A stretch of 64,000 nt of DNA, from positions 524,599 to 588,598 of the forward strand of contig KE159810.1 of NCBI GenBank assembly GCA_000403495.2, read 5' to 3'. Below, piece by piece: positions 4,267 through 52,423 of the stretch. A program made the translations under genes and the position numbers. How positions within the stretch are numbered: position 1 is the first letter of the stretch; the number at the start of each line of letters is the position of its first letter. Origin of the DNA: Lachnospiraceae bacterium 10-1 (lineage in GTDB: Bacteria > Bacillota > Clostridia > Lachnospirales > Lachnospiraceae). The notes beneath the pieces are model-generated. The model was not told the DNA's origin. It saw only the letters and a program-made list of their open reading frames with translations, and made no database searches.

Positions 4267-4956
4267 TTATACTTTTATATCCTTGATTTTGCTTTGGCTG
4301 ATTAAAATATCCTGGATGTCGAAATGTTTGCCGGCAATGGCTTTGATACTTTTTCTATCCTGATCCCTTATGGCTTCAATTAAAGCTTTATGCTCCTTTT
4401 GGGCAGAATCCACACGAGTAGGGTATATTTCCGTAATCATGAAAAATTTACGTTCAGATATGGCATACAGGGAACTTAAAAGTGCCGGATAGATGCTGTT
4501 ATGGCTTGCCTTTGCAATCTGCAAGTGAAATGCCACATCACATTCGTTAAATTTCTTTACGTGTTTACGGTAGGTTTCCATCTGCTCATAGATAGCTTCC
4601 AGTTCACAGATGTCTTCTTTTGTGGCTACTTTTGCCGCCTTAAGACAGACCTCCATTTCAAGAACGGACCGTACTTCCACAATATCCATTAAATAGTTAT
4701 GGTTGTCAAATACTACGCTTTCCAGATAATCCGCCAGTTTTTCATCCTGCCTGTTGGATACATATGCACCTTTTCCCGGAATCACCTCAATCAATCCTTT
4801 ATCACTTAAAACGCGCAGTGACTCCCTCAGCATATTTCTGCTGATCCCAAACTCCTCCGCCATTTTGCGCTCTGAAGGAAACTTTTCTCCAACTTCCATT
4901 TCTCGAATCCTGCCTTCCAGCTTTTCCAATATTTCACTGCTTAATAATGTTGCCAT
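4267..4956 (-). CDS. GntR family (FadR subfamily, FCD domain) transcriptional regulator
   Basis: This 229-residue regulator has an N-terminal winged helix at about residues 8-68 (GEKFPSERKMAEEFGISRNM, then RESLRVLSDKGLIEVIPGKG) and an all-helical FCD ligand-binding domain from about residue 80 to 215. The FCD domain keeps the typical His pattern (FHLQIAKASHN, KEHKALIEAI, KHF). It lies 26 bases after frlD in the same transcript. Its operator consensus appears at both the frlD and frlB promoters, so it probably represses the locus and is released by a pathway intermediate. The frl regulators known in E. coli and B. subtilis are, as I recall, of the HutC GntR subfamily, so this is a different subfamily doing the same job. 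Confidence 0.88.
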   Translation of the reverse strand: MATLLSSEILEKLEGRIREMEVGEKFPSERKMAEEFGISRNMLRESLRVLSDKGLIEVIPGKGAYVSNRQDEKLADYLESVVFDNHNYLMDIVEVRSVLEMEVCLKAAKVATKEDICELEAIYEQMETYRKHVKKFNECDVAFHLQIAKASHNSIYPALLSSLYAISERKFFMITEIYPTRVDSAQKEHKALIEAIRDQDRKSIKAIAGKHFDIQDILISQSKIKDIKV

Positions 4957-4982
4957 ATATCACTCTCTTCCCTCATTAGTTA

Positions 4983-5762
4983 TCAAAATGCCCCAAAATG
5001 CTGAATTGTTTCCTCTGCCTTGGCAGCGCCTGCCCAAAGACAGGATAAAATATCTTCTCCGTTCATTTTTGCGTACATGAATCCCGCAATAAATGAATCA
5101 CCTGCCCCAATGGTATCTACAGTCTCTACCTTTCTTATTCCATGCCTGTAAAACTTTTCTCCATCATAGGCAATACTGCCATTTTCCCCCAAGGTTGCAA
5201 TCACACATTTGATAGAATTCCTGTATGCATTTTTCAGATAGTCCAAAATAAATTCATCCTCTTTTGTGTAAGAAAAAAAGGCGTACTGTACTGCGTTTAA
5301 TACCTGTTCCCGATTTTGATAATCCAGCTTGTTCCCAAAATCATAGCATAAAACAGCATTCCTGGATAAATCAGCCACCTTTTCGTCAATATTTCCGTAT
5401 ACGGAAGTATGTATCAAATCTACTCTCTGAATAAGATCCTCATCTGTCTTATTTAATTTAAATTGTTTTAGCACCCCTTCACGGTAAGCAAGAAATTTCC
5501 TGTCATTTCCCTCTAAATCAACTTCTGTGACCGCAGTCTCTCCCTCCATCACATGAACCTTGCTTACATCAACCTTTGCATTTTGTAGTTCCTTTAAGAC
5601 AAGCCTGCCATTTTCATCATTTCCAACTGCTCCAAGATAAGCAGATTCGGCTCCAAGCTGGCACATATACACCGCAAAATTTACAGAGCATCCGCCAACA
5701 TATTTTTCTCCACGATTCACATAATGATCAATGCAGTTATCACCAATTGCCAATGTTTTCAT
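4983..5762 (-). CDS. frlD: Fructoselysine 6-kinase (PfkB/ribokinase family)
   Basis: This 259-residue PfkB-type sugar kinase opens with MKTLAIGDNCIDHYVNRGEK and GGCSVNFAVYM, carries VIATLGENGSIAYDGEKF, and ends with the ATP/anion-hole and catalytic-base motif DTIGAGDSFIAGFMYAK (Asp base in GAGD) and ETIQHFGAF. These segments closely parallel E. coli FrlD, which phosphorylates fructoselysine at C6 before FrlB cleaves it. An AGGAG site lies eight bases before the ATG. It is the first gene of the frlD-regulator transcript, with a canonical promoter and an operator just upstream. Confidence 0.88.
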   Translation of the reverse strand: MKTLAIGDNCIDHYVNRGEKYVGGCSVNFAVYMCQLGAESAYLGAVGNDENGRLVLKELQNAKVDVSKVHVMEGETAVTEVDLEGNDRKFLAYREGVLKQFKLNKTDEDLIQRVDLIHTSVYGNIDEKVADLSRNAVLCYDFGNKLDYQNREQVLNAVQYAFFSYTKEDEFILDYLKNAYRNSIKCVIATLGENGSIAYDGEKFYRHGIRKVETVDTIGAGDSFIAGFMYAKMNGEDILSCLWAGAAKAEETIQHFGAF

Positions 5763-5786
5763 ATACCATCTCCTACAGCTAAGATT

Positions 5787-5797
5787 TGGTACTACCA
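5787..5797. promoter_or_regulatory. GntR/FadR-type operator upstream of frlD
   Basis: TGGTACTACCA is an exact TGGTNNNACCA palindrome. It lies immediately downstream of the frlD -10 box and matches the site at 4043-4053 in sequence and position. Confidence 0.75.
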
Positions 5798-5806
5798 GTT
5801 ATGCCA

Positions 5807-5836
5807 ATTATAAAATAGCAATCGTAATTTTGTCAA
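5807..5836 (-). promoter_or_regulatory. Promoter of frlD-regulator transcript
   Basis: On the minus strand TTGACA (5831-5836) and TATAAT (5807-5812), spaced by 18 bases, give consensus -35 and -10 boxes. Confidence 0.8.
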
Positions 5837-5878
5837 TTATATTTTACCCGGCAGCCATCCTTATGTTAAAAAGAAGAA

Positions 5879-5905
5879 GCAGGACTTTCAAAATGAAAGT
5901 CCTGC
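5879..5905 (-). terminator. Terminator of the glutamate synthase-like gene
   Basis: GCAGGACTTTC and GAAAGTCCTGC form a perfect 11-bp stem with a 5-base loop. On the minus strand it is followed by a T-rich tract. It lies 38 bases after the stop codon of the gene ending at 5943. Confidence 0.8.
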
Positions 5906-5942
5906 CACAGTAAAAAACTTTTAAATTACATTTTAAATCAAT

Positions 5943-7343
5943 TTATTTTCCACCTGCATGTGGAATATTTGTATGCTCTGATATTTCCCTGCTGATTGTA
6001 CAAAGGTCATCCGTTGAAAGGCTGTGTATATCCGCATTTCCGGTAATTCTTGCAAATGTTCTTAATTCCTCCGCAGAACACTTCAAATAATTCTCTACTC
6101 TCTTTGCAGCAGTGTCAATATGTAATCTTTCACGCAGTTTTTCATCCTGGGTAGCCACACCTACCGGACACATTCCGGTGCCGCAAATACGATATTGCTG
6201 ACAGGCTGCCGCCACCATAGCTGCAGAAGCAACAGCCACAGCATCTGCACCCATGGCAATTGCCTTTGCAAAATCAGAAGATACCCTGAGTCCTCCTGTG
6301 ATTACCAGATCAATCTCTGATCCAATGGAATCAAGATATTTTCTTGCACGATAAAGTGCATAGATTGTAGGAACGCTGGTGGAATCCCTTATAATGGCAG
6401 GAGATGCTCCTGTTGCACCGCCCCGTCCATCTATGGTAATAAAATCAGGCTCTGCATAAACGCAGAATTCCAAATCCTTCTCAATACGTCCAGCAGCAAT
6501 CTTAATGCCTATCGGTCTGCCATCACTTAACATACGCAGATCATTTACCAGCCTTTTTAAATCCTCCGCACTGTTTATTCCCGGAAATTTGGAAGGACTG
6601 ATGACATCTTTTCCCAGAGGTTTGTTTCTTATTTTTGCAATTTCAGGAGTAACTTTTTCTCCTGGCAGGTGGCCGCCCATCCCCGGTTTGGTTCCCTGCC
6701 CGATTTTAATTTCAATGGCATCGGAGGTTTTCAGATTTTCTTCCGTCACACTGTACAAATTCGGCACATATTCAAAAATATACTTATGTGCCGCTTCCTT
6801 TTCCTCCGGAAGGATGCCTCCCTCCCCACTGCACATGGCTGTACCGGCGGCGGCACTTCCTTTGGCCAGTGCAATTTTTGTTTCTCTGGAAAGTGCACCA
6901 AAAGACATATGCGAAATGTAAACCGGCATATCAAGAACCATAGGCTTTTTTGCATGTTTTCCAATTACAGTTTTCAAAGACACTTCTGCGTGTTCATCTA
7001 AAGGCATGGGATTTAACTGTGCGCCAAGTACAAGCACATCATCCCAGTTTGGCATTTTTCTCTGTGTTCCCATCGCCTCAATTGCTGACTTTCCGGTAAC
7101 AGCCATTTCGTGGATTTCTTTCATATACCGGTAATCACTGTCCATCTTCCGGGTTTCTTTGGGATAGCTTAAGTCCAGGTTCTCAACATTTACGGAAACA
7201 GGCTTCTTTTCGGATTCCGGCTGGGCTTCAAACTTCTCCGGCGGCTGTTTACAGATGGGGCATTCCGTCAATTGGGAAACTGGTTTTCCCTCTTTTTCCT
7301 CATCATACACATATCCACAGATACTGCATTTGTAGATCATCAT
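5943..7343 (-). CDS. Rubredoxin-glutamate synthase (FMN-binding GltB2-type) fusion
   Basis: The first ~40 residues form a rubredoxin-like iron site (CSICGYVYDEEKEG then CPICKQPPEKF). After a linker, residues ~70-466 make the FMN-binding glutamate-synthase barrel, with MSFGALSRETKIALAKGSA, IGQGTKPGMGGHLPG, DGRGGATGASP and CGTGMCPVGVATQ. This stand-alone synthase domain is the kind found in anaerobes that lack a fused glutaminase; it binds FMN and an Fe-S cluster and may form glutamate from 2-oxoglutarate with ferredoxin or rubredoxin electrons. No glutamine amidotransferase domain or gene lies beside it, so the physiological reaction is uncertain. It appears monocistronic with its own terminator. 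Confidence 0.85.
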   Translation of the reverse strand: MMIYKCSICGYVYDEEKEGKPVSQLTECPICKQPPEKFEAQPESEKKPVSVNVENLDLSYPKETRKMDSDYRYMKEIHEMAVTGKSAIEAMGTQRKMPNWDDVLVLGAQLNPMPLDEHAEVSLKTVIGKHAKKPMVLDMPVYISHMSFGALSRETKIALAKGSAAAGTAMCSGEGGILPEEKEAAHKYIFEYVPNLYSVTEENLKTSDAIEIKIGQGTKPGMGGHLPGEKVTPEIAKIRNKPLGKDVISPSKFPGINSAEDLKRLVNDLRMLSDGRPIGIKIAAGRIEKDLEFCVYAEPDFITIDGRGGATGASPAIIRDSTSVPTIYALYRARKYLDSIGSEIDLVITGGLRVSSDFAKAIAMGADAVAVASAAMVAAACQQYRICGTGMCPVGVATQDEKLRERLHIDTAAKRVENYLKCSAEELRTFARITGNADIHSLSTDDLCTISREISEHTNIPHAGGK

Positions 7344-7497
7344 AAGTACCTCCTTTTTATTTTTCTTATCTGCATTTTTGGCAAAAATCGTATCCTTTTA
7401 AGCCTATCATAACAGTCAGGAAGGTCTTCTACAAGCATTTTTCATATAATTGTTCTTTAGACCGGTTTATACCACCTACCCGGCAATTCGTCAACCT

Positions 7498-8373
7498 TCA
7501 AAGGTTCCAAAGACTTAATTGCTCCGCAGGATTCTTTTCTTCAAAAGTGTGAAGATACTGGAAAATCTGCTCATTATTATGAACAATCCCATTTTCTGAA
7601 CATTTCTGGGTAAATAATTTCATCAGCCGGTCATTTTCCGGACTCCCAACGATATACTGATTTCCGTACATTCGTATATATTTTTCTTTTAACCCTGGAA
7701 ACAGACGGTCTAACTGCTCATAAAAATACTCTCTGTTTCCCTCCCGGAGCGTCAGCCCCATGCCAAAACAAATGATTCCATAAACCTTTGCCTCAATACA
7801 TAAATCTAAAATTCCGGAAATATTCTCCTTAGTGTCATTGATAAAAGGTAAAATCGGAGTTAACCACACCACGGTTGGTATTCCTGCATCCCGAAGCGTT
7901 TTCAATACCTGAAAACGCTCTTTTGTGGTACATACATTTGGCTCAATTTTTCTGCACAAATCTTCATCACAGGTAGTCAGCGTCATTTGCACAACGCATT
8001 TTGTCTTTTCATTTATTTTCTGCAAAAGGTCCAGATCCCGCATAATACAATTTGACTTTGTGATAACTGTAAATCCAAATCCATACTGATAAATCAGCTG
8101 CAGTGCTTTTCTTACATTTCCAATTTCCATCTCCAAAGGGATATAGGGATCTGTCATGGAACCTGTGCCAATCATACATTTTTTCCGCTTATGCTTAAGA
8201 GCATGTTCCAATAATTCTATGGCATTTTCTTTCACTTCAATATCCTCAAAAGCATGTTCCATATGATAACACTTACTTCTGGAATCGCAGTAAATGCAGC
8301 CATGCAGGCAGCCCCAGTATAAGTTCATTCCGTTGTTTGATGATAAGATTCCTTTGGCTTTTACAAAATGCAT
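7498..8373 (-). CDS. SPL-family radical SAM protein
   Basis: This 291-residue protein carries an early radical SAM cluster motif, C22-x3-C26-x2-C29 (WGCLHGCIYCD), and the SPL-like pattern (GTGSMTDPYIPLE, ITKSNCIMRDLDLL, MTLTTCDEDLCRKIEP, VVWLTPILPFINDT). It is expected to bind a 4Fe-4S cluster and cleave S-adenosylmethionine in the cytosol. The spore photoproduct lyase itself is longer and has an extra C-terminal Cys; this shorter subgroup is common in Clostridia and its substrate is unknown. It follows the YciI gene by 45 bases, suggesting co-transcription. An AAGGAG site precedes the ATG. Confidence 0.82.
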   Translation of the reverse strand: MHFVKAKGILSSNNGMNLYWGCLHGCIYCDSRSKCYHMEHAFEDIEVKENAIELLEHALKHKRKKCMIGTGSMTDPYIPLEMEIGNVRKALQLIYQYGFGFTVITKSNCIMRDLDLLQKINEKTKCVVQMTLTTCDEDLCRKIEPNVCTTKERFQVLKTLRDAGIPTVVWLTPILPFINDTKENISGILDLCIEAKVYGIICFGMGLTLREGNREYFYEQLDRLFPGLKEKYIRMYGNQYIVGSPENDRLMKLFTQKCSENGIVHNNEQIFQYLHTFEEKNPAEQLSLWNL

Positions 8374-8418
8374 ATGACGCTCCTTTTCTTACCTGCATTT
8401 TTTCTGCATTTTCCTGTC

Positions 8419-8718
8419 TTAAAGAAGGTAATTGTTCTCCTTGTCCGCCACCTGCAGCGCTTTTAATTTATATGTGGCATACCCTTCCGCCACAAGAGGT
8501 TCCGCTTTACAAAATTCTTCTGCCTGTTCATAGTTTTCTGTTTTCAAAATATACATTCCGGCAACCCCGGGCCATCCTTTAAAAACACCGCAAAGCTCCA
8601 GGTATCCTTTATCATCCAGATCTTTAATGTTGGCAACGTGCCTTTCGATTACAGCTTTTGTAACCTTGTTAAATGATTTGTTTTTTTCAATCATCATAAC
8701 ATACAACCATTTTTCCAT
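8419..8718 (-). CDS. YciI-like protein
   Basis: This 99-residue ferredoxin-fold protein has the YCII pattern: an N-terminal strand (EKWLYVMMIEKN), the helix with RHVANIKDLDDKGYLELCGVF, and EEFCKAEPLVAEGYATYKLKAL, where the His and Asp conserved in the family can be seen. YciI proteins are small putative enzymes or ligand-binding proteins of unclear role. It is the first gene of a probable two-gene operon with the radical SAM protein, behind a palindromic site at 8764-8787. Confidence 0.8.
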   Translation of the reverse strand: MEKWLYVMMIEKNKSFNKVTKAVIERHVANIKDLDDKGYLELCGVFKGWPGVAGMYILKTENYEQAEEFCKAEPLVAEGYATYKLKALQVADKENNYLL

Positions 8719-8763
8719 GCGCTTATCTCCTTTATTTTTTCTTACTTATAGAATAGCATCTTT

Positions 8764-8787
8764 AATATGACATATAGCTGTCATATT
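8764..8787. promoter_or_regulatory. Palindrome in divergent intergenic region
   Basis: AATATGACA and TGTCATATT form a perfect 9-bp inverted repeat around TATAGC, 46 bases before the YciI start and about 145 bases before the divergent gene at 8933. Its form (TGACA-N6-TGTCA) suggests a dimeric repressor site; the regulator is not identifiable here. Confidence 0.45.
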
Positions 8788-8932
8788 CTTATCATATTTA
8801 TTATAAAATAAAAGTATTTGCACATTTTAGTCTCATACATTATAATTTTATACATGCAGCCCGAACATAAAATAATATACATGCTTTAAATTGTCCGCAT
8901 TCTTACTATCGGCTGAAACAGAGGAAAATAAA

Positions 8933-9478
8933 ATGTATGCTTACCATGTTGTAACCGAAAAACCCATGTACATAGGACAGCAAATTATATTTGATGACAA
9001 CCATCATAATGGTGTTTTCCAGAGAGTATATGATAAAATAAATATTGTGAATGATATATATGCAAATCCGTCCAAATATAACGCTGAAACATTAGAGCAT
9101 CACACATCAGTTGCATTAAGAGAACTTGCTTTAGAAGAAGTCCGGCAGAAAAAATATCCTCAGTATCCATCACGTATGAGTTGTTTATATGTTTCCAGGA
9201 CATTTGAAGAAGCAAACAACTGGGGAAATTATTTTGCTGAAATTGGACGTCCCACATATCATATTGTTAAGCTGCATATAGACGGAAACTGTTTTATAGG
9301 TGATGCTTCAAAATGCTTTGCAGGTCAGTTGACAAAAGAAGCTAATATAAAATCAGCTGAACTTTATTGGCAAAATAAACAGGATCCTGCCAGTCAACCC
9401 TCTATATGTGAAATGCTGGTAAATGGAAAAATAGAGGTCATTGAAATAGTAAAAGAAATAAACATCAATATAAATTGA
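8933..9478 (+). CDS. DUF2441-like protein
   Basis: I place the start at the ATG at 8933, preceded by GAGG seven bases upstream, rather than at the upstream TTG at 8891. The resulting 181 residues begin MYAYHVVTEKPMYIGQ and contain GNYFAEIGRPTYHIVKLHIDG and CFAGQLTKEANIKSAELYW. The pattern resembles DUF2441 proteins, which look like ADP-ribosyltransferase-related folds, but the function is unknown. No signal peptide or membrane segment is visible. It is one of few plus-strand genes here. A hairpin (AAGGGCTGT/ACAGCCCTT, 9491-9512) follows it. Confidence 0.6.
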   Translation: MYAYHVVTEKPMYIGQQIIFDDNHHNGVFQRVYDKINIVNDIYANPSKYNAETLEHHTSVALRELALEEVRQKKYPQYPSRMSCLYVSRTFEEANNWGNYFAEIGRPTYHIVKLHIDGNCFIGDASKCFAGQLTKEANIKSAELYWQNKQDPASQPSICEMLVNGKIEVIEIVKEINININ

Positions 9479-9488
9479 AACGGTCTTC

Positions 9489-9668
9489 CTAAGGGCTGTA
9501 AAAACAGCCCTTCCCGCTTACAGTCTTAACTTCCTTGATTCCATATTGCCTCCGAATCGTATCAATTTCGTCTAAAGTAAACAGTTCTTTGCGCAGTGAG
9601 TTATCTTCGTTTAATACAAAGCCATCTTTTAATATATCTCCGACAATGGTATTGCCACGTGTTCCTGT
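9489..9668 (-). pseudogene. Gene fragment, C-terminal remnant
   Basis: A 59-codon open stretch with no start codon ends in a stop at 9489. It reads protein-like (GNTIVGDILKDGFVLNEDNS, then LRKELFTLDEIDTIRRQYGI), and an in-frame stop lies just upstream at 9669. It looks like the C-terminus of a larger protein, possibly an accessory gene of a mobile element, but I cannot name the family. Confidence 0.4.
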
Positions 9669-9697
9669 TCATCTACCGGAACCAGGTATGCTTACAT

Positions 9698-10183
9698 TCA
9701 TGTTATGTCTGCCTCCTTCTTTTCATAAAATGTTAATGTAAGTCTTTCGTTAATGACCTTTGTTTTGCCTGTTTGACGATATCCCATTTTTTCATATAGA
9801 TGACAGTTTTTAGGCTCCTGCAAAATGGTGTCCAGCTCCCAATTATCGTTTCCGTGAATTTCTTCACACAGCCGGATTGCTTTCTGCGCAATTCCTTTCC
9901 CTTGAAATTCCGGCAATATAAATATCGGGGAAATTCTTTTGTTTTTTCTGTTTTCCTTTATATCAACAATGCGGATAGCTCCGGCTTTTTGCTGTCCTAT
10001 GCAGATAAAATAGTAAAAAGTAAAATCCTGTTTTAAGCGTTCTTCTATTTTTTCCACGCTTTCATTTCCAGGACTTGTATCATAATCCTGATATTTCTCC
10101 AATAATTCTTTAAAAGCTTCAACCTGCATAGCGTGTAGTTCTTTTGCGTTGTCAATGTTTGCCCTTAATAATGTTACTTCCAT
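9698..10183 (-). CDS. GNAT family N-acetyltransferase
   Basis: This 161-residue protein has the GNAT fold with the acetyl-CoA loop FILPEFQGKGIAQKAIRLCEE (around residues 89-109) and a C-terminal EPKNCHLYEKMGYRQTGKT, the usual substrate-side motif before the last strand. It begins MEVTLLRANIDNAKELHAMQ with GGAGG upstream. The substrate is unknown. It is followed by another GNAT gene upstream (10277-10789), but the two are less similar to each other than recent duplicates would be. Confidence 0.85.
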   Translation of the reverse strand: MEVTLLRANIDNAKELHAMQVEAFKELLEKYQDYDTSPGNESVEKIEERLKQDFTFYYFICIGQQKAGAIRIVDIKENRKNKRISPIFILPEFQGKGIAQKAIRLCEEIHGNDNWELDTILQEPKNCHLYEKMGYRQTGKTKVINERLTLTFYEKKEADIT

Positions 10184-10276
10184 AATATAGCCTCCGTGTT
10201 AAATTAAATCAATCCTTTTGAGTTGGTGTATATACCTTTTCAAAATCTTCGATATTCATTGTCCTAATTGTCATTA

Positions 10277-10789
10277 TCACCATTCCTCCTGACTAATCTT
10301 TTTGAATTTTTCCAACCGATAATGCTGCTCATAATCCAGCTCTTTTATTCCATTTTTATACTCATATCCCTTTTTCCGATAAAATTCTACCGCAGTAATA
10401 GATGCGGGAATTTCTATTCTTTCTGCTCTTAAGAATAATTCATCGGCTTCAAGGGTATCAATGATCTGGCTGCCAATCCCCTGCCCATGAAATTCCGGCA
10501 ACACAAAAATAGTAAGTAATATACTTTCCGTGGGGCTCCCCCAAAAACTTGATATGGAACCAACACCCACAATTTTATCTTCATTCCAAAATACATACAC
10601 ATGTGCGTATTCCGCCACTCCTTTGAACCAATTTACATCATGGGAGGCAGCAAGAGCAGCCACAGCTTCCTCTCCATAATCTTTCACATTGACTTCTTTA
10701 AAATTTCTGATAATCAGCTTGACAATTTCTTCCGCATCTTCTTCCCTGTAGGGCCTTACAATAATTTCGATTCCATTTGATAATTTCAT
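10277..10789 (-). CDS. GNAT family N-acetyltransferase
   Basis: The start is placed at the ATG at 10789 because AAGGAG lies seven bases upstream; the open frame extends 23 codons further without a ribosome site. The 170-residue protein has the GNAT acetyl-CoA signature (FVLPEFHGQGIGSQIIDTLE) and PASITAVEFYRKKGYEYKNG near the C-terminus. The acceptor substrate is not predictable. Confidence 0.85.
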   Translation of the reverse strand: MKLSNGIEIIVRPYREEDAEEIVKLIIRNFKEVNVKDYGEEAVAALAASHDVNWFKGVAEYAHVYVFWNEDKIVGVGSISSFWGSPTESILLTIFVLPEFHGQGIGSQIIDTLEADELFLRAERIEIPASITAVEFYRKKGYEYKNGIKELDYEQHYRLEKFKKISQEEW

Positions 10790-10858
10790 AAAAAACTCCT
10801 TTCTAAACAATGGGTGCCAGGCTTCCCCAGCTATCCTTATGTGAACAAAAAAATACAC

Positions 10859-11255
10859 TAAACATACAATATGTCCAGTGCACTCTTAAAACAATCGGCT
10901 ATTACAGGCATTCCGCCATAATTACAACTTACACCTTCCGATTTATATGCACAGACATATCAGACCTGCCTGCGTAACTGTGCATCCAATCGAAACACAA
11001 TTACTACTAAGTACGTCTGTAATACATGTACATATAATTCATTGTAAAATGTAAGTTCTGCATTTTTATGTTCTCCTAAACTTTTTAATAAACTACCATA
11101 ATTCTATTTATATGTCAAGAAATATTTGCTTTGAAACGCGAAATATTAGAACTTCGGCAATTCAGTTTCTTTTTACCAAAGTTCTAATATTGACTGCCAT
11201 TCTAGCATTATTATCACAGATGGGGCAAGAACCATAAACGATAGATAATGCGTGC
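10859..11255. other. Non-coding interval with a long inverted repeat
   Basis: No credible gene is seen in this 397-base AT-rich interval. It holds a 16-bp inverted repeat, AATATTAGAACTTCGG (11142-11157) and CCAAAGTTCTAATATT (11176-11191), with one mismatch and an 18-base loop. The repeat could be the terminator of the superoxide reductase gene (minus strand) or a small mobile-element relic. Confidence 0.5.
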
Positions 11256-11636
11256 CTATCCAATCTCCGTCTTCCAGAACCCATGCAGGTTACAGTAGGC
11301 ATAGGCTGCCACTGCCTCATCCGACTTTGCCATTACAAACTCCGCTGTGGGCTCATCATCAGGACACAGTTTTACAAACTGTCCGCCTTTTTTGGTTTCA
11401 AGATAAATCCAGCCAATGCTGTGCTCCTGCGTCATGGGATGAAAAACGCTTCCCACTGACACTGTAATTTTGTCTCCGTCCTTTTCAACCACCGGCAGGT
11501 GTTTCTCTCCGGCGCCTTCTGCTGTACTGCTGTCTAAAATGGAAAATCCCTGACAGGTACAACTATTTAAGTTGCTTTCTTTCCCTTCTACTAAAAATAA
11601 AATTTCTTCCTCTTTCTTTAGAAATACCGGTTTCAT
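11256..11636 (-). CDS. Superoxide reductase (desulfoferrodoxin/neelaredoxin family)
   Basis: The ATG at 11636 is chosen because AAGGA lies just upstream. The 126-residue protein carries the full ligand set of the SOR iron centre: the EKH motif (His46), HPMTQEH (His66 and His72), and CNLH (Cys115, His118). It reduces superoxide to hydrogen peroxide without making oxygen, a typical oxidative defence of anaerobes. The N-terminal Cys pair (SCTCQG) is not the complete four-Cys centre of two-iron desulfoferrodoxins, so it is a one-iron type. Confidence 0.9.
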   Translation of the reverse strand: MKPVFLKKEEEILFLVEGKESNLNSCTCQGFSILDSSTAEGAGEKHLPVVEKDGDKITVSVGSVFHPMTQEHSIGWIYLETKKGGQFVKLCPDDEPTAEFVMAKSDEAVAAYAYCNLHGFWKTEIG

Positions 11637-11768
11637 AATCTTTTCCTTTCTTTTCATTAAATATTTCAAATCATTTCCTGTTTGCCAAAGTTAAATACCC
11701 TGCCGCAGGCTGACGGGCATCAAACTTGTAACTCAGCAGGCAGTGGGGGTATTTTACCCTCGCGGCAT

Positions 11769-13991
11769 TTACAAAATCGGATTTGCCGCCTTTTCCTTCA
11801 AACGGTTAAATCTTGTATCCACTTCTGTCTGCAGCTCCTTTACAATATCTGCATAAATATCCTTTTTAAGATGCTTTGTTCTTCCCATCATGGAAAGCCA
11901 GTCAATCACAGGAATTTTCTTATTCTGTTTTTCCGGATCATAATTTAAAGTGGTTTTCCCTTTTTCCACCTCGTATAGAGGAAAATAACAGCAGTTTACA
12001 GCCGCCTCAATTACCTTCCGTTCCGTAGATGGCACATCATTCCAATTTAAGGGACAGGCAGATAATGCCTTTACATAAGCAGTTCCCGTGGTTTTGGCAT
12101 AATACGCTGCCTTGGCCGCTTTTTTGATAAAGTCTATGGGATTGCTTTCCGCCATAGTTGCCACATAAGGAATGCCTGTTGCCGCCATAATCTGAGGCAT
12201 ATCCTTGTGGAAAAAGGTTTTACCATATTGGTTTTTACCAACATGGGAGGTAGAACTTCTTGCTCCCTTTGGCGTGGAATAGGAAAGCTGATATCCGGTA
12301 TTCATATAGCCGCCATTATCGTATTCAAATAGAATCAGCCTATGTCCCCGAAGGGCGGTTCCTATGGCAGAGCCCATGCCGATATCCATACCTCCGTCTC
12401 CACTTACCATAATGAATATAATATCTCCGGGAGGTATTTCTCCTTTTTTCTGTTTTCGGTAACAGATTTCAGCTACACCGCTTAAAGTAGCAGCGCCATT
12501 TTGAAACAGATTGTGAAGGTAAGGAACCTTAAAGCTGGTTCGGGGATAAGCAGTGGTTACGATCATCCCACAGCCAGTTTGAAACAAAAGGACTACGGGA
12601 TCTTCTATGGCTTTTAAAAGAAGATTAATATTTACCGGTATTCCACAGCCTGGGCAGGCGCCATGTCCCGGAGCCAGCCTTTTAGGCATTGCCGTAGCCG
12701 CATTTAAATTCCCGATTGTCATCTGAACCTTCCCATCCTCAGTTTTTTCCACCTTTGTAAGACCAAGCTTTGTTTCTTTTTCTGTTAAGGGAGCGTAAAA
12801 ATTATTTTCCTCAAAGTCTTCACCCGGCTCAACTCCATAATATTCAAAATCTGAGGTATCCGGATTTTTTGCCCACTCATACATTTTTAATGCGTCTTCT
12901 GCAAAAAAATCCTTTCCGCCAAGACCGTAAACCAGACTTTTAACTCTTGCAGTGCCTCCATACTTCTGCATTGCGGAACGCACCTCTATGGAAAGATTTC
13001 CTCCTCCGGCGCCATAGCTGTCCTGCCTGTCCGCCACAAGCAGAACTTTTGCGTTTTTACAAAGACTGAACAGTTCTTTTGCGGGAAAAGGTCTTAATGT
13101 ATGAATGGTAACTGCTCCGGCCTTTTGCCCCTGCTTCCTTAAATCATCTATTGCTTCCAGAGAAGTATCATAGGAAGAGCCCAGAAAAATTAAAATAGTT
13201 TCCGCATCCTCCGCCTGATAGCCTTCTGCTTTTTCATAGACGCGTCCGGAAAGCTTTCCATATTCTTCAAACAATTCCGGCAGCAAACGGTCTGCCCTCT
13301 CCATTGCAAGATGAAGCTGATATCTGTTGTTGATCAGATCCGGTTCATTCATGTAGGAACCTACCGTAATAGGATGCTCCAAATCAAGAAAAGGATACAT
13401 TTCCTTTTTGGCGCCTAAAAATTTCTTTACCGTCTGATCCTCTTTAAAACGCAGGCACCTTCTCTTCTGATGGCTGGTAAAAAATCCATCATAAGCCACA
13501 ATTACCGGAAGCAGAACTGTCTCTGCCAGTTTTAACGCAATCAAATTAAAATCATATACTTCCTGCACGGTATGGGCAAACAAAATAGGCCATCCCGCAT
13601 TCAGCATAAACATAATATCACTATGATCTCCCTTAATGGACAAGGGCCCCGATACGGTTCTGCACACCACATTCATCACCATAGGATACCTGGTTCCTGA
13701 CTGTACAGGAAACTGTTCAATGGCATACAAAAGTCCGTTGGCGCTGGTGGCATTAATTACCCTTCCGCCTCCTACAGCCGCCCCATAGCATATTCCTGCC
13801 GCACTGTGCTCCCCTTCCGCTGCAATCATAATCAGGTCTGTTTCTCCCTTAGCCCTCATAATATCCAGATTCTCTGCAATCTGTGTGGATGGAGTGATAG
13901 GATAGTACCCCATCAGATCATAGCCTATCTGTTTGATTGCAATTGCCGCAATCTCATTTCCGCTTGCAAATTCTACTACCTGATCTCTCAT
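11769..13991 (-). CDS. 2-oxoacid:ferredoxin oxidoreductase, fused alpha and beta subunits
   Basis: This 740-residue protein joins two subunits usually made separately. Residues 1-~400 are the alpha (pyrimidine/transketolase C-like) subunit with GYYPITPSTQIAE and KGDHSDIMF. Residues ~435-740 are the TPP-binding beta subunit with HGACPGCGIPVN and VSGDGGMDIG (the TPP/Mg motif). With the gamma-delta protein encoded just upstream it would oxidatively decarboxylate a 2-oxoacid to an acyl-CoA and reduce ferredoxin. VorB/KorA-like features are visible but the substrate (branched-chain 2-oxoacid, 2-oxoglutarate or aryl pyruvate) cannot be fixed. Its ATG overlaps the stop of the gamma-delta gene (ATGA), indicating translational coupling. 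Confidence 0.85.
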   Translation of the reverse strand: MRDQVVEFASGNEIAAIAIKQIGYDLMGYYPITPSTQIAENLDIMRAKGETDLIMIAAEGEHSAAGICYGAAVGGGRVINATSANGLLYAIEQFPVQSGTRYPMVMNVVCRTVSGPLSIKGDHSDIMFMLNAGWPILFAHTVQEVYDFNLIALKLAETVLLPVIVAYDGFFTSHQKRRCLRFKEDQTVKKFLGAKKEMYPFLDLEHPITVGSYMNEPDLINNRYQLHLAMERADRLLPELFEEYGKLSGRVYEKAEGYQAEDAETILIFLGSSYDTSLEAIDDLRKQGQKAGAVTIHTLRPFPAKELFSLCKNAKVLLVADRQDSYGAGGGNLSIEVRSAMQKYGGTARVKSLVYGLGGKDFFAEDALKMYEWAKNPDTSDFEYYGVEPGEDFEENNFYAPLTEKETKLGLTKVEKTEDGKVQMTIGNLNAATAMPKRLAPGHGACPGCGIPVNINLLLKAIEDPVVLLFQTGCGMIVTTAYPRTSFKVPYLHNLFQNGAATLSGVAEICYRKQKKGEIPPGDIIFIMVSGDGGMDIGMGSAIGTALRGHRLILFEYDNGGYMNTGYQLSYSTPKGARSSTSHVGKNQYGKTFFHKDMPQIMAATGIPYVATMAESNPIDFIKKAAKAAYYAKTTGTAYVKALSACPLNWNDVPSTERKVIEAAVNCCYFPLYEVEKGKTTLNYDPEKQNKKIPVIDWLSMMGRTKHLKKDIYADIVKELQTEVDTRFNRLKEKAANPIL

Positions 13992-45429: not shown

Positions 45430-45657
45430 TCAAACAAATTGCAATACTCCATCTGTCTCAATCTCATACAGATTATATGACCGAATTTTCATACAGGTAT
45501 TATCCTCAAAAACAAATTCTACTATCCAGGGCATTAAATTTTTAATTCTTTCAAAATCAGAAAAGCCAAATGTTTTGTCATAATAATTAATGACAGTACT
45601 CAGTGCAGTCCCATGGCTTCCAATAACAACATTTTTCCCCTTAAAACCAGTTAACAC
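45430..45657 (-). pseudogene. Histidine phosphatase, 3' half (split by element)
   Basis: The 75 codons read LTGFKGKNVVIGSHGTALST (the second catalytic His in SHGTA) to the end of a phosphoglycerate-mutase-type phosphatase. The apparent GTG start is an artefact of element insertion. The 5' half is at 51871-52263, on the far side of the integrated element; joining the halves at the TGTT core gives continuous GEMLTGFKGKN. Confidence 0.92.
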
Positions 45658-45721
45658 TTGATTTTACGGTGATAAGGAAGTATTTACAACAACTATCATT
45701 AACGCTGACAAACAGAGTGCT

Positions 45722-45760
45722 AAAAGGACGAAAATCCCAAATAAAAATTTTCGTCCTTTT
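45722..45760 (-). terminator. Terminator of cargo operon
   Basis: AAAAGGACGAAAAT and ATTTTCGTCCTTTT form a perfect 14-bp stem with an 11-base loop, 28 bases past the stop of the second cargo gene. A T-run follows on the plus strand, protecting the cargo from the element end. Confidence 0.75.
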
Positions 45761-45787
45761 TATTATAAATTTGTTGTATTAATATAT

Positions 45788-46528
45788 TTAGGCTGACTTA
45801 TTCCAATTAGGATAGTCAATTAGAAGGACAATTTCTTGAACCGTTTGTCTTAATTCAAATTTGAATTTGTCAAAATCAGATTTGTGAGCAAAAAACCGCC
45901 TGTTATGAGCACTTAAATCACCATACTTTTTTACTTCCTTAATGTAGCTTGATAAATTTCTGCTTACATTCCATTTGTTAGAATTTATAAACTTAGGAAT
46001 TAAATCACTTAAATAAAAAAAGTTCCCGTTATTATCTTTTATTTCGTTTTCGATATTATATCTTTCAAAGCATTCGATAATGAGTGTTTCAAGTAATTTT
46101 CGCATCATAACCAAAGAAGCATCATATAAACCAGCTTCATAACATGCACACATTTGAAAACCGATTTTTTCAAGATAGTATTGTGTATTTCTTAATATGT
46201 CTAACGGAAATAATTCATCGGATACAGATATTGAAATACATTCACCCATAATATTAGATATTTCTTTTTGAGCTTGTCTGGTTAATTTGTATCCCAATTT
46301 ACTCTTAATAAATATAGCATTTTTACCAGAAGAAAATTTACTCATATATGATGATATATTAGAATAAGGCTGTAAGTGTAACTTATCAAAACAATTATTT
46401 ATATCCCTTGGAAGCACCCAACTGTCATCATTAATCGTTAAAAAGTATATAAAAAATTTTATTTGCTCACTGGCCTTCAAATTATCAAATCCATTTATTT
46501 TTTGAATAAAGCCTTCTAAGTTTTCCAT
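45788..46528 (-). CDS. Cargo protein B: winged-helix plus DUF4145-like domain
   Basis: I do not recognise this 246-residue protein as a named family. The first ~90 residues look like a winged helix (EQIKFFIYFLTINDDSWVLP, IKSKLGYKLTRQAQKEISNI). The second half recalls DUF4145-type helical domains: YDASLVMMRKLLETLIIECF, then VKKYGDLSAHNRRFFAHKSD with the usual AH ending. DUF4145 domains are often attached to restriction and defence proteins. The ATG shares its A with the stop of cargo gene A, so the two are translationally coupled. Base composition is AT-richer than the recombinase end of the element. Confidence 0.65.
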   Translation of the reverse strand: MENLEGFIQKINGFDNLKASEQIKFFIYFLTINDDSWVLPRDINNCFDKLHLQPYSNISSYMSKFSSGKNAIFIKSKLGYKLTRQAQKEISNIMGECISISVSDELFPLDILRNTQYYLEKIGFQMCACYEAGLYDASLVMMRKLLETLIIECFERYNIENEIKDNNGNFFYLSDLIPKFINSNKWNVSRNLSSYIKEVKKYGDLSAHNRRFFAHKSDFDKFKFELRQTVQEIVLLIDYPNWNKSA

Positions 46529-47424
46529 TATTTATTTTGCCCTTCCGATATAGTATGTTCAATCAAATTGATTCCCCTTATAGTAATGCTATAATTTCCA
46601 TTCTCAACATTTGCATAACCGTATCTTGAACTACAAACATCTCTTAAATTACCCGCTAAATCATTGGGGATTTTTGTTCCTAATTCTCTCCAACACGTAA
46701 ATATAATATCTCCATTTATATCTCCAGTATATTCATAAATTTGTTGCAGATAATAGATAATTGTTGCAGTAGTATTTATATTACTTGTAGGCTTTACTTC
46801 ATTTACAAAATCTTTCAAACCTTTTCTTGAAGTCGTAGTCGATAAATCTAAGTCTTTGATTAATTGAAATTGCTTACCTTTGGAAACCTTTTTTGTTTTT
46901 GCTTTATTTTCACTAGAATTTTCACGTGATAGTATTTCGTTTATTTTTATCTGTCCTTCTGATCGAACAGCATATTCATCATCATTTAAAGCAGATAAAT
47001 AATTATTTGAAACTACAGAAGTTAGGCTATTAAAAAAATTGTTGCTCCTACTGGTCGTCATGCGATTGGTAACATTATACATTTCTTTAATTTCTGTACG
47101 AGAGACAGACCTTGTTCCAAAATCGGATGCATAAAAAGCATACAATAATATCCATTCGGATTCCGACTTTGGCAAACACTTTAACGCAACTTCTTTTAAA
47201 GAAGGATAGTTATTATCAACGGTATTATTACACAATTCTTTATTATTTTGTGTAATCAAATTAGACTGATAACTTGACGCAGGAAAATGTGCTTTTGGAA
47301 TTTTACTTAACTCGCCAAGCCCATTCTCTCGCAACTCGTTTAACATAGTTTGAACTAACTCGCCATCCCCCTCTAGTTGAAGTGATAATTCACCGATTGA
47401 AAGGCTTAATTTTAAATTTGACAT
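46528..47424 (-). CDS. Cargo protein A: tandem winged-helix-like protein
   Basis: This 298-residue protein starts MSNLKLSLSIGELSLQLEGD, followed by a polar linker and two segments that resemble each other and the N-terminus of cargo protein B: SEWILLYAFYASDFGTRSVS with NNYLSALNDDEYAVRSEGQI, and TATIIYYLQQIYEYTGDING with YGYANVENGNYSITIRGINL. Both end in a strand plus helix typical of winged-helix folds. No catalytic motif is visible. AAGGAGG lies just upstream. It heads the two-gene cargo operon with a promoter embedded in an inverted repeat. Confidence 0.65.
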   Translation of the reverse strand: MSNLKLSLSIGELSLQLEGDGELVQTMLNELRENGLGELSKIPKAHFPASSYQSNLITQNNKELCNNTVDNNYPSLKEVALKCLPKSESEWILLYAFYASDFGTRSVSRTEIKEMYNVTNRMTTSRSNNFFNSLTSVVSNNYLSALNDDEYAVRSEGQIKINEILSRENSSENKAKTKKVSKGKQFQLIKDLDLSTTTSRKGLKDFVNEVKPTSNINTTATIIYYLQQIYEYTGDINGDIIFTCWRELGTKIPNDLAGNLRDVCSSRYGYANVENGNYSITIRGINLIEHTISEGQNK

Positions 47425-47445
47425 TTTCCGACCTCCTTTTTTACA

Positions 47446-47519
47446 ATCATAACATAACTTCCATTTATGTTCAATAATACATAAATAAAAATTTCATTGA
47501 TTTCAATGGTGTTGAACAT
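47446..47519 (-). promoter_or_regulatory. Cargo promoter with operator-like repeats
   Basis: On the minus strand TTGAAC (47469-47474) and TATGAT (47446-47451), spaced 17 bases, form the promoter. The -35 overlaps one arm of an inverted repeat, ATGTTCAA (47467-47474) / TTGAACAT (47512-47519), and between the arms lies a second palindrome CATTGA-N2-TCAATG (47495-47508). Confidence 0.6.
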
Positions 47520-47773: not shown

Positions 47774-47977
47774 CTATCGGTCGAAGCGGAATTTCAATAT
47801 GGCTTCAACCAGTTTCGCCTTTAACCTATCCTGTGTATCGTCATTGATATGCCCCTTATACATAGACAGATATTTGATGTGTGCGGTGTAATATCGCAAT
47901 ACTGCGTCTACCGCTTCCGGCTCTCCGGCAACGGCTTCTTCGATTACCTCAAAAGGTATCAATTTTTTATTCCTCAT
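47774..47977 (-). CDS. Helix-turn-helix protein of conjugative-transposon type
   Basis: This 67-residue protein (IPFEVIEEAVAGEPEAVDAV, then LRYYTAHIKYLSMYKGHIND) matches the small HTH domain that accompanies sigma-like regulators in Tn916-type elements. It overlaps the end of the sigma-like gene by 11 bases and is translated after it. Confidence 0.85.
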   Translation of the reverse strand: MRNKKLIPFEVIEEAVAGEPEAVDAVLRYYTAHIKYLSMYKGHINDDTQDRLKAKLVEAILKFRFDR

Positions 47978-48407
47978 GTTTCAATCTCTCCCATTCTTTC
48001 CGTAACTGTTTCAGTGCAACATTTCTTCTGTGGTTTATCGTACTTCTGCAACGCCCGTACAGCCTGCCGATTGCTTTATCACGATAACCGATGAAGTAAT
48101 ATAGTAACAAAACTTCTTGCCTTAACTCCGGCAATTTTGATAATGCCGTTGCTAACCGTTCATCATCAACAATAACTTCCTTTCCCAACACAAGAAATGC
48201 GGTCGACTTGTCCTGCTTTTCAAAGTAACTGTCCATAACAGACGGTTCAAAATATCGTTCCGACATCAGATAGTCAAGGGATATTTCCCGTTCCATTTTC
48301 CGCTTCAAATCCCGCCATGCGTTTATGGCTTCATGGCGCAGGACAACCTTGCAGAACGCATGAAAAGCATATTCAATATGTTCCATGAATTGTTCAGAAT
48401 ATCTCAT
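47967..48407 (-). CDS. Sigma-70-like regulator of conjugative-transposon type
   Basis: This 146-residue protein has a short region-2-like part and a C-terminal region 4 (LSKLPELRQEVLLLYYFIGY, then RDKAIGRLYGRCRSTINHRR). Such proteins are found in Tn916/Tn1549-like elements, where they control excision and transfer gene expression. GGGGG(T)GAG precedes the ATG. It is co-transcribed with the small HTH gene. Confidence 0.85.
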   Translation of the reverse strand: MRYSEQFMEHIEYAFHAFCKVVLRHEAINAWRDLKRKMEREISLDYLMSERYFEPSVMDSYFEKQDKSTAFLVLGKEVIVDDERLATALSKLPELRQEVLLLYYFIGYRDKAIGRLYGRCRSTINHRRNVALKQLRKEWERLKHEE

Positions 48408-48926: not shown

Positions 48927-49139
48927 TTATTTCGATTTTTTCTCCTCCTCTACCGTAAATACTTCCTCAATCGTTACACCAAAAACTTTTGCTATATTCC
49001 ATGCCAAAACTAAAGAAGGGTTATATTTTCCTTTTTCAAGATTTCCGATAGTTTCACGACGCACACCCACTTTTGAAGCTAATTCCTCCTGCTTCATATC
49101 AAATCTCGCCCTATACTCCTTTATTCTGTTTTTAATCAT
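48927..49139 (-). CDS. XRE-family regulator
   Basis: The 70-residue HTH protein ([40 protein letters not shown]) is of the short single-domain type and overlaps the end of the DUF3796 gene. The pair XRE-DUF3796 is common in Clostridia and often autoregulates. Confidence 0.85.
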
Positions 49140-49482
49140 TTTTTGCATTTAACCTCTCTCTAATTTCCATTATAAAAGTTGAAAAAGCAAAAATGGCTAT
49201 TGATACTCCAAATCCCAATGCTGTTCCGGCTGCTAATGGATTGCTGCTAAGATTGAAATGTGACAGTATCAAGGTTGCGGATGTTGTAATTAAGAGGTTT
49301 GATACAAACGCAAAAGTAGCGCATTTCCTCATGTTTTCAATAAACATTTCATCGGGATTTACCCAGAAATATTCAAAGAATAGGGCAAACGCAAAAAAAC
49401 ATAGGAATAAGGGTTCCTCACCCAAAATCCCCCAAAATCCTAACAGAGAAAGAAAACCTATACAGCCATACCAATTTTTCAT
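49132..49482 (-). CDS. DUF3796-type membrane protein
   Basis: This 116-residue protein has four hydrophobic segments ([74 protein letters not shown]) and the central WVNPDEMF motif. Its function is unknown; it is paired with the XRE regulator. Confidence 0.8.
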
Positions 49483-50120: not shown

Positions 50121-50182
50121 GTGCGCTATAATAAAGTTAGCACTACTGTTTGTCGGGCGTTCATTACAGGAGGAATGAACAT

Positions 50183-51814
50183 ATGACAGCAAATACATAT
50201 AAGCCCGGACAGATAACAGCATTATACGCCCGTCTTTCGCAGGAAGATACGTTAGAAGGCGACAGCAACAGCATTGTAAACCAGAAAGCAGTCCTTTCCA
50301 AATATGCGGCGGACAATGGCTTTTCCAATCCTGTTTTCTTCATTGACGACGGTGTATCGGGCGTGACGTTCGACAGACCCAATTTTAACCGCATGATTGC
50401 AGAGATTGAAGCCGGAAACGTGGCGACGGTTATTGTCAAGGATATGTCAAGGTTAGGGCGCGATTATCTGAAAGTCGGCTACTATACGGAAATCTTTTTC
50501 GTAGAGCGTGACGTTAGATATATCGCAATCAATGACGGTGTGGACAGCGCAAAGGGGGATAACGATTTTACCCCGTTCCGCAACCTGTTTAATGATTTTT
50601 ACGCCAAAGACACAAGCAAAAAGGTACGGGCAATCAAGCGGGCGCAAGGACAGGCGGGGGAACATCTGACAAAGCCGCCCTATGGCTACATGGTAAGCTC
50701 TGCGGACAAAAAGCTATGGATTGTGGACGAGGAAGCCGCCGCTGTGGTGAAACGGGTTTTTGATTTATGTATCGGTGGGAAAGGTCCCATGCAGATAGCA
50801 AAAATCCTCAAAGAAGATAAGGTACTGACTGCCAAAGCCCACTACGCAAAGAAAAAGGGGAAAGCACTTCCCGAAAATCCCTATGACTGGAGAGATAGTA
50901 CCATTGTCGGTATTTTGGAGCGTATGGACTACTGCGGGCATACGGTGAACTTCAAAAGCTATTCCAAATCCCACAAGCTGAAAAAGCGGATTCCTACCAC
51001 AAAGGAACAGCAGGCGGTTTTCTATAATACCCATGAAGCGATTGTGGAAGAGGCAGTTTTTGAACGGGTGCAGGAACTAAGGGCAAACAAACGCCGCCCC
51101 ACAAAAGCGGAAAGACAGGGATTGTTTTCTGGATTGGTATATTGTGCAGACTGTGGGAGTAAACTACACTTCGCCACTTGTAAGAGTTTTAACGGTTCAC
51201 AAGACCATTACCGCTGTGCAAAGTATAAGAGCAATACGGGAAGCTGTACGGCGCACTTTATCCGCGAAGAAGTGTTGAAGCAGATAGTATGGAGCAGGAT
51301 ATTTGATGTGACTGCCCTTTTCTTTGATGACATCATGGCTTTCCATGAAATGATGTACGCACAACGCTCTGCCGAAACGGAAAAGGAAATGAAGCGCAGA
51401 AAACGGGAAGTCGGACAGGCAAAAAAACGGATTGTAGAACTTGACCGTATCTTCAAGCGGATTTATGAGGACGACATAAGCGGCGCAATCAGTCACGACA
51501 GATTTTTGAAGCTGTCCGCAGAGTATGAAGCGGAACAGCGGGAACTGGAAGAAAAGGTCAAGGCAGACCAGCAGGAAGTCGATACCTACGAACAGAACAA
51601 AAGCGACTTTGACAGCTTCGCCGCGATTATCCGCAAGTATGTAGGGATAAAAGAACTCACTCCCACAATCGTCAATGAATTTATCAAGAAAATCATAGTC
51701 CATGCGCCGGAAAAGGTGGACGGGAAACGGGTACAGAAAGTAGATATTGTTTTCAATTTTGTAGGGGAAATCAATTTCCTTTCTGTCACGCAACCGAAAC
51801 GGCAAGGCGCATAG
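50183..51814 (+). CDS. Large serine recombinase (TnpX-like, DUF4368)
   Basis: The ATG at 50183 has AGGAGG upstream, giving 543 residues. The resolvase domain begins ITALYARLSQEDTLEGDSNS with catalytic Ser19 and continues with VKDMSRLGRDYLKVGYYTEI. The recombinase domain (PPYGYMVSSADKKLWIVDEE), a zinc ribbon (YCADCGSKLHFATCKSFNGS, CAKYKSNTGSC), a long coiled coil, and a C-terminal DUF4368 follow. It catalyses integration and excision of the element through a short core sequence. It reads outward toward the right end of the element. Confidence 0.95.
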   Translation: MTANTYKPGQITALYARLSQEDTLEGDSNSIVNQKAVLSKYAADNGFSNPVFFIDDGVSGVTFDRPNFNRMIAEIEAGNVATVIVKDMSRLGRDYLKVGYYTEIFFVERDVRYIAINDGVDSAKGDNDFTPFRNLFNDFYAKDTSKKVRAIKRAQGQAGEHLTKPPYGYMVSSADKKLWIVDEEAAAVVKRVFDLCIGGKGPMQIAKILKEDKVLTAKAHYAKKKGKALPENPYDWRDSTIVGILERMDYCGHTVNFKSYSKSHKLKKRIPTTKEQQAVFYNTHEAIVEEAVFERVQELRANKRRPTKAERQGLFSGLVYCADCGSKLHFATCKSFNGSQDHYRCAKYKSNTGSCTAHFIREEVLKQIVWSRIFDVTALFFDDIMAFHEMMYAQRSAETEKEMKRRKREVGQAKKRIVELDRIFKRIYEDDISGAISHDRFLKLSAEYEAEQRELEEKVKADQQEVDTYEQNKSDFDSFAAIIRKYVGIKELTPTIVNEFIKKIIVHAPEKVDGKRVQKVDIVFNFVGEINFLSVTQPKRQGA

Positions 51815-51870: not shown

Positions 51871-52263
51871 TTACTTCCCTCTAACCGTAAACATTTCACC
51901 TAACGCTCTTATATTTCTGCTTTGCACTTCATTCAAACTTTCGCCATCAGTCAGCTTATAATCAAAATTTTCCCACTGTTTCCTGCTAAATGTATTAAAG
52001 TCATCTATCCATTCATTTCCTATTTTCCGTTCCCGAAAATCATCTATAATTTCTATTTCCAGATTTACCGATTCCGCAAAGTCAGCAATTGTATCAACTG
52101 CCCGTTTATACGGGCTTGATAATGCAGCATCAATACGCTTATCCAGCAAAAATTTCTTAACAAGTTTTCTGTCCTGTAATCCTTTATTTGAAAGTTCTCT
52201 CGATAGATCGTCATGATTATCATAATTGGGTTCAGCATGTCTGACAAAATATATGGTTGTCAT
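51871..52263 (-). pseudogene. Histidine phosphatase, 5' half (split by element)
   Basis: Starting at the ATG at 52263 (GGAGGG upstream) the frame gives MTTIYFVRHAEPNYDNHDDL with the RHA catalytic motif and continues to NEVQSRNIRALGEMF, where it enters the element and stops. Fused in silico to 45430-45657, it would be a phosphoglycerate-mutase-type phosphatase of roughly 200 residues. Confidence 0.92.
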
Positions 52264-52279
52264 TTTTCCCTCCATGCCT

Positions 52280-52423
52280 TTATCCTTTATCTTCTGTGTC
52301 AATTTGAAACTTGTCTTCCGGACGTTCGTATTCTATTTTAAATCCTAATACTTTCGTGTAGAATTCTCTGGATTTATTAATATCAGTGACAGTTAATTCC
52401 GGTATCAGTTTATTAAATTTCAT
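52280..52423 (-). pseudogene. VOC (glyoxalase/bleomycin-resistance) N-terminal stub
   Basis: Forty-seven codons, MKFNKLIPELTVTDINKSRE and FYTKVLGFKIEYERPEDKFQ, form the start of a VOC-fold protein that stops after about 40% of its usual length. The 3' part has been replaced by the phosphatase gene start. The product cannot form the paired VOC fold. Confidence 0.8.

Follow-up and report, generated by a model that had tools for sequence, protein, structure and literature searches.

A pair of adjoining genes, P1 and P2, of Lachnospiraceae bacterium 10-1 would, at a probability that we put at about one half, form a rare two-gene defence module resembling abortive infection, with P1 as the sensor or adaptor and P2 as the effector, often acting as a back-up of restriction-modification (R-M). 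Relatives of the two genes recur together in distantly related bacteria, in some cases next to known anti-virus genes, and for this reason the genes may belong to a bacterial immune module about which little is known. In the mechanism that we infer, which comprises sensing, complex formation, attack on RNA and protection from phage, the variable N-terminus and the winged helices of P1 would bind either nucleic acid or a partner specific to infection, and P1 would hold P2 through winged-helix contacts. The trigger could be either a breach of the R-M barrier or the sensing of phage DNA or of its replication, upon which P1 would release or recruit P2, and the HEPN/DUF4145 bundle of the latter would attack or bind RNA, so that the cell stops. 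The window is the whole stretch of 64,000 nucleotides of contig KE159810.1 that was analysed, and coordinates refer to it unless another locus is named.

The gene pair and its host element

Both genes lie on the minus strand: gene 1 (46528..47424) encodes P1 of 298 aa, the proposed sensor/adaptor, and gene 2 (45788..46528) encodes P2 of 246 aa, the proposed effector. The preliminary description of this DNA reported a one-base overlap between them, and our check of the sequence and of the open reading frames (ORFs) found this single shared base in TAATG at 46528. The composition of the pair was also said to differ from that of the element backbone, as it indeed does: its G+C was 0.297, in comparison to 0.427 for the remainder of the element and 0.406 for the window outside it, and none of 1179 sampled windows of the same length (step 50, none covering the pair) had a G+C as low as these 29.7%.

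The pair is located at the left end of an element of about 6.2 kb, of the serine-recombinase type, which interrupts a histidine-phosphatase gene and of which the pair is the sole recognisable cargo. The large serine recombinase is encoded on the plus strand (50150..51814; Resolvase, Recombinase, zinc ribbon and DUF4368 by Pfam). The backbone includes, on the minus strand and likewise by Pfam, an HTH_16 protein (47774-47977), a sigma-70-region-4-like protein (47967-48407), an HTH_3 regulator (48927-49148) and a DUF3796 protein (49132-49482). A recognised defence gene was not found in the element by Pfam (the PADLOC scan covered P1 and P2 only). The phosphatase gene is split into a 5' part (51871..52302) and a 3' part (45430..45663), both on the minus strand. 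Each of three same-genus genomes has one uninterrupted locus, with open frames of 202-283 aa, to adjoining stretches of which both pieces match; four of the 20 genomes in this search gave a match, the window's own included. The exact ends of the element were sought within the window and were not found.

Upstream of gene 1, we read from the sequence a Shine-Dalgarno-like AAGGAGG on the minus strand (47432..47438), 7 nt from the ATG. It is preceded by a promoter-like site on the same strand, TTGAAC-17-TATGAT with TG before the -10 (47446..47474). At 9/12 matching positions the site is weak by itself, and 17 sites of that grade occurred in the region that holds it, compared to 10.1 +/- 3.4 expected. 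Overlapping or nested inverted repeats, to which no strand is assigned, occupy 47463..47519: ATTTATGT/ACATAAAT, ATGTTCAA/TTGAACAT and CATTGA/TCAATG, with arms at 47463-47470/47479-47486, 47467-47474/47512-47519 and 47495-47500/47503-47508. The -35 hexamer overlaps one of these arms. Thus, of the promoter embedded in nested inverted repeats that had been proposed for the pair, a promoter-like site and repeats are present, but the former is weak and the latter are within chance, as 8.75% of 2000 dinucleotide shuffles attained two 8-mer repeat pairs as well; the fold z of the region was -0.89. For this reason the repeats were dropped as a candidate operator.

A terminator-like hairpin (45722..45760, strand not assigned) follows gene 2. 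Its arms of 14 nt are perfect (45722-45735/45747-45760), its fold z is -6.6, and none of 200 shuffles was equally stable. The strong terminator described earlier is therefore retained as a very stable hairpin, but on the genes' strand the stem ends in only UUUU, the longer T run being on the opposite strand, and a terminator scan, which reported 0 sites, did not list this hairpin. We dropped the designation of a proven terminator on these two grounds.

P1 and P2 form a conserved pair that diverges together

The search for further copies covered whole genomes in family, order, class and phylum samples, and an alignment scan of named-genome contigs (at least 12 loci). At least 21 loci were found outside the window, in Clostridia-type genomes and in Bacteroidota (G080, G107, G373, G856, G865, G839, G792, G851, G716, G1168, L026 and L028-L037; L027 and G865/L020 are one contig and enter the count as a single locus). 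P1 and P2 lie next to each other on the same strand in 20 of the 21 listed loci, two of these pairs being decayed (G107 and G792), and the remaining locus (G716) has a P2-type protein without P1. The earlier suggestion of a self-standing pair is hence borne out: at least 20 adjacent copies exist beyond the element of the window, whereas a lack of such co-occurrence had been named beforehand as a refutation. P1 precedes P2 (order A) in the window and in 15 other loci, including those of Aquimarina, Lacihabitans, Leeuwenhoekiella, Flavobacterium and Chitinophaga, and P2 precedes P1 (order B) in G080, G839, G792, G851 and G1168. The distance between the genes in 14 measured order-A pairs ranged from an overlap of 14 nt to a gap of 10 nt.

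Each of seven pair-bearing genomes had a single P1 locus, the known one, and P1 was found in one of 236 further genomes (G856), where it is paired; a P1 homologue without an adjoining P2 occurred in none of these genomes. The distances among P1 and among P2 sequences were correlated, with a Mantel r of 0.70 for 12 order-A pairs and 0.75 for 16 pairs (p 0.0002, the floor of 5000 permutations; L026, L033, L037 and the decayed G107 and G792 were left out). P1 diverges faster than P2, with a mean identity of 26% versus 47%.

The distribution is patchy: the pair was found in 3/299 genomes of the family, with two chance matches dropped, and in 2/344, 7/391 and 2/398 genomes of further samples, which overlap and each of which takes in the window's genome. 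Two candidate homologues were rejected as chance matches, one lying inside an ORF of another kind (G297, E 5e-4) and one being an ORF without a partner (G207, E 3e-4). Neither tblastn of plasmids and phages with P1, P2 and their homologues, nor single-sequence and alignment scans of viral (IMG/VR) contigs gave a match, a result that counts against a defence module. A structure search among viral proteins reached at best E 0.82, which we regard as no result, and the single-sequence scan of the named-genome contigs had no match.

Since the genes are small and coupled, have a promoter-like site and a terminator-like hairpin and reside in a mobile element, they could also be a toxin-antitoxin or element-stability module. 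P2 would then be a HEPN-type toxin and P1, which has DNA-binding-type folds, an antitoxin that represses its own promoter, and the pair would keep the element in the population rather than fight phage; HEPN toxins of such operons are known (PMC3710099, in the portion consulted). However, the order-B clade has the genes in the opposite order, the operator-like repeats are within chance, the plasmid searches gave no plasmid-borne copy, and some pairs adjoin R-M or AbiL genes. P1 also exceeds in size and modularity the usual antitoxins, which are smaller and less modular. We consider this explanation rather unlikely, bearing in mind that the categories of toxin-antitoxin and defence can overlap.

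Domain architecture of P1 and P2

P1 and P2 of the window had no significant match in Pfam, NCBIfam or PDB sequences, the PDB sequence searches reaching at best E 0.12, which we took as chance. A housekeeping family, a match to which had been named beforehand as an argument against a defence role, was accordingly not indicated for either protein by Pfam or NCBIfam. P1 had no match in PADLOC.

The AlphaFold model of P1 (mean pLDDT 75.7) contains an N-terminal domain of a beta-hairpin and a helix (aa 4-35, modelled with low confidence) followed by a disordered linker, a first winged helix (about aa 76-165) followed by a Lys-rich linker, and a second winged helix (about aa 203-296). The pLDDT of the winged-helix regions was about 79-94 per 10 residues, with 66 for the last block. 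The two winged helices ascribed to gene 1 in the preliminary description are thus borne out by the model and by the homologues. The first of them is absent from P1 of G856 and from four short forms, and the second from P1 of L026. The N-terminus of P1 is interchangeable: many homologues have a domain of the beta-hairpin type, four (L030, L031, L033 and L037) have a short helix-like segment, and three have a double zinc ribbon, which scores above the Pfam cut-off in L028 and L034 but below it in L035. A distant P1 homologue in G080 had a weak match to DnaD_N (E 4e-4, under the cut-off), and the P1 and P2 profiles weakly cross-matched a few members of the opposite family (1e-5 to 7e-5). In a Clostridia MAG (L033, 5416-7330), P1 and P2 are followed by a second, different P1-like gene.

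The model of P2, made with homologues in the alignment, had a mean pLDDT of 89.4 and consists of a winged helix (about aa 19-93) and then a bundle of long helices (about aa 117-237) of the DUF4145/HEPN-like type, with the motif KKYGDLSAHNRRF. In the Foldseek search Csx1/Csm6 proteins were on top (best E 0.16), followed by the HEPN protein 2hsb (prob 1.00, TMt 0.74), and 1ufb, 4nqf and 6m6w were matched as well. As all Foldseek HEPN matches had E > 0.1, P2 is predicted to carry the HEPN helical-bundle fold by fold only. The assignment to DUF4145 (PF13643) comes only via a homologue, since P2 of the window had no Pfam match at E<=1 and hence none above the gathering cut-off. Among six P2-type homologues, one scored above the cut-off (L023, 26.2 versus 23.1), four scored below it and one had no match, and in scans of further homologues the family was below the cut-off or absent. 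The reading of gene 2 as a winged helix with a DUF4145-like tail is upheld by the AlphaFold model and the homologues, and we regard the initial domain reading of both genes as right on account of the models, the Foldseek and PADLOC matches and the homologue that passes for DUF4145.

Csm6/Csx1 of type III CRISPR, which share the HEPN bundle, are the best matches of P2 in both PADLOC and Foldseek, and in these proteins the bundle sits behind a winged-helix-like part. However, both matches are weak (E 5e-5, partial, for the PADLOC Csx1 model and 0.16 for Foldseek), and P2 with its 246 aa has no room for a CARF/Rossmann domain; its model consists of the winged helix and the HEPN-like bundle, with no CARF sensor domain. 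P2 also differs from Csm6/Csx1 in having no Rx4-6H motif.

According to the rule given in the portion consulted of PMC3710099, catalytic HEPN domains have an Rx4-6H motif. In P2 of the window we found K200-x7-H208, with G203 at the position of the arginine. The Rx4-6H motif was present in one of the 20 P2 rows (L037, RNSYAH), and the catalytic arginine was missing in the other 19, with G, or A in L034, where it is expected. K-x7-H occurred in 14 of the 15 order-A rows, most of them with GDLSAHNRR, and the five order-B-type rows had R- or K-x7-H with GN. Catalysis by P2 is hence doubtful. The canonical motif RNSYAH of L037 (9983-10765) stands behind a winged helix of the P2 family, and we read this, from the sequence, as a putative active effector domain that was swapped in or is ancestral.

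Neighbourhoods and known defence systems

R-M or AbiL-type genes directly adjoin eight of the 21 listed loci, two of which are decayed and one of which has gene 2 alone. The R-M genes were of type I in G373, of type II in G080, G1168 and the decayed G792, and of type III in G851 and G716 (P2 alone); AbiLi/AbiLii-type genes, which we take to be the same as RloA/RloB, directly adjoin the pair in L036 and, in G107, the decayed one, which also has a HerA-like gene nearby. The ORF names HsdR, BsuBI/PstI, RloA/RloB, guaA and those of prophage genes are presumed from our own reading unless PADLOC or Pfam supports them. Two C5 methyltransferases lie one ORF away from the pair in L030. In L031 the pair faces an AAA ATPase and a Cas3/DpdF-like helicase, but the controls gave matches to broad models as well, DpdF among them.

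As a control, 207 ORFs in 15 stretches of the same genomes were compared with 16 neighbour proteins (1e-8), and none matched any of them. With own-locus queries excluded, six ORFs in 3/10 near-pair regions matched these proteins, and none did among 192 ORFs at 12 named-genome loci or among 60 ORFs of the window. For the remaining 11 of the 21 loci, a bulk PADLOC scan of the neighbours gave no enrichment over the control: 115 neighbour ORFs matched 13 families, one member each, and 115 control ORFs matched 111 families, the control being longer (39,844 versus 30,648 residues) and without Bacteroidota, and the best 25 of its 111 families being displayed. The 13 families included a methyl-directed restriction enzyme (7e-101). 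PADLOC matches alone discriminate poorly, and the bulk scan was dropped as proof of a defence island because the control was richer in families. An association with defence is thus apparent for order B and for a small number of order-A loci, with no excess in the remaining 11, and the defence role suggested for the pair at the outset is supported only by this association, in the former but not in the latter.

Many neighbourhoods, especially in Bacteroidota, are unremarkable, and together with the multiple winged helices this would fit ordinary regulatory genes, i.e. transcription factors of the element or of the host with no role in conflict. We find this distinctly improbable, as the patchy distribution, the fast divergence of P1, the R-M and AbiL neighbours and the HEPN-like domain all argue against it.

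Five of the six order-B-type loci (G080, G792, G851, G1168 and G716, but not G839) directly adjoin R-M genes. This, the missing catalytic arginine in 19/20 P2 rows and the fusion of DUF4145 to type I restriction subunits (PMC3506569 and PMC3710099, in the portions consulted) would agree with accessory subunits of restriction, which help R-M complexes find or hold DNA and have no effector activity, the HEPN bundle being a scaffold for dimerisation or nucleic-acid binding. However, G373 is the only order-A locus that directly adjoins R-M genes (the methyltransferases of L030 being one ORF off), the R-M types beside the pair differ (I, II and III), and the canonical HEPN motif in the L037 sequence suggests a catalytic role. 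We regard the accessory function as quite improbable.

The reading of the pair as a defence module can be compared with described systems. DUF4145-family HEPN proteins (PF13643) share with P2 a bundle of helices in which a G-(N/D)-x3-H core is conserved; in the consulted parts of PMC3710099 and PMC3506569, these domains occur in R-M contexts, with fusions to restriction subunits and a coupling of R-M to suicide. P2 differs from them in that a winged helix precedes the bundle and that P1 is its partner; this pairing is absent from the portions of the literature searched (PMC10799925, PMC12839542 and PMC13092281 among it; preprints and most subscription papers were outside its scope). In CoCoNuT systems of type IV restriction, CnuE consists of a winged helix and a C-terminal nuclease, often HEPN, is encoded beside a partner, and has its effectors swapped (PMC11090510, portion consulted). 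P2, a winged helix-HEPN protein encoded beside a partner, may work similarly. However, CnuE follows the CnuH helicase (same portion of PMC11090510), whereas the partner of P2 is P1, in which we found no enzymatic domain; Pfam detected no helicase domain in the element ORFs scanned, and only the recombinase is longer than the genes of the pair. We did not file the pair as CoCoNuT because the helicase is lacking and Rx4-6H is missing in most copies. PD-Lambda-5 and other R-M+Abi hybrids couple an Abi-type part to restriction (PMC9519451, portion consulted), and one P2 homologue had a weak model match of this kind (E 8e-4), but we found no methyltransferase domain in P1 or P2. AbiL genes and the L036 pair form one operon with overlaps, and in G107 AbiL adjoins the decayed pair, but this concerns only 2/21 listed loci, and P1 and P2 had no match to AbiLi/AbiLii of PADLOC.

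A broader and more tentative proposal, which we hold to be less likely than not, is that the pair belongs to a family of modular immune systems, each of two proteins and so far undescribed, which would stand as a second line behind restriction. In P1 the winged helices would be the core to which interchangeable N-terminal detectors are attached; in P2 the winged helix would be constant and the HEPN-type effector exchangeable. One branch of this effector would be a DUF4145 active site that lacks the arginine (K/R-x7-H with a GD/GN core) and that differs in its nucleic-acid chemistry or in its target. If true, this would be a defence module that is rare, spans phyla, has exchangeable parts for sensing and for effect, and is not recognised by a 2023 defence database (PADLOC gave nothing for P1 and a weak partial Csx1 match for P2). 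It would also offer a minimal two-gene case for a HEPN/DUF4145 back-up when restriction fails, and a case for asking whether the arginine-less HEPN form is catalytic.

Several loci show further features of arrangement. In L036 (7164-10744) a single operon holds the pair and the AbiLi/AbiLii-type genes, which overlap it, and in L009 (10348-12722), from the relative genome G107, these genes are open and the pair has collapsed by an internal deletion. A solitary HEPN protein of the P2 type, whose N-terminal region differs, adjoins a type III R-M system in L024 (9245-14350). In L008 (about 2321-12923), the island of G080, in which R-M genes accompany an order-B pair, is flanked on one side by a guaA-like ORF and on the other by a shorter one of the same kind, and by our reading of the ORFs it looks as if it had integrated there; the order-B pair of L021 (905-4422) likewise follows what we read as a guaA-like ORF. 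The pair of G856 (L019, 9574-19583) adjoins ORFs which, as we read them, resemble phage structural and lysis genes, and it may be located in a prophage.
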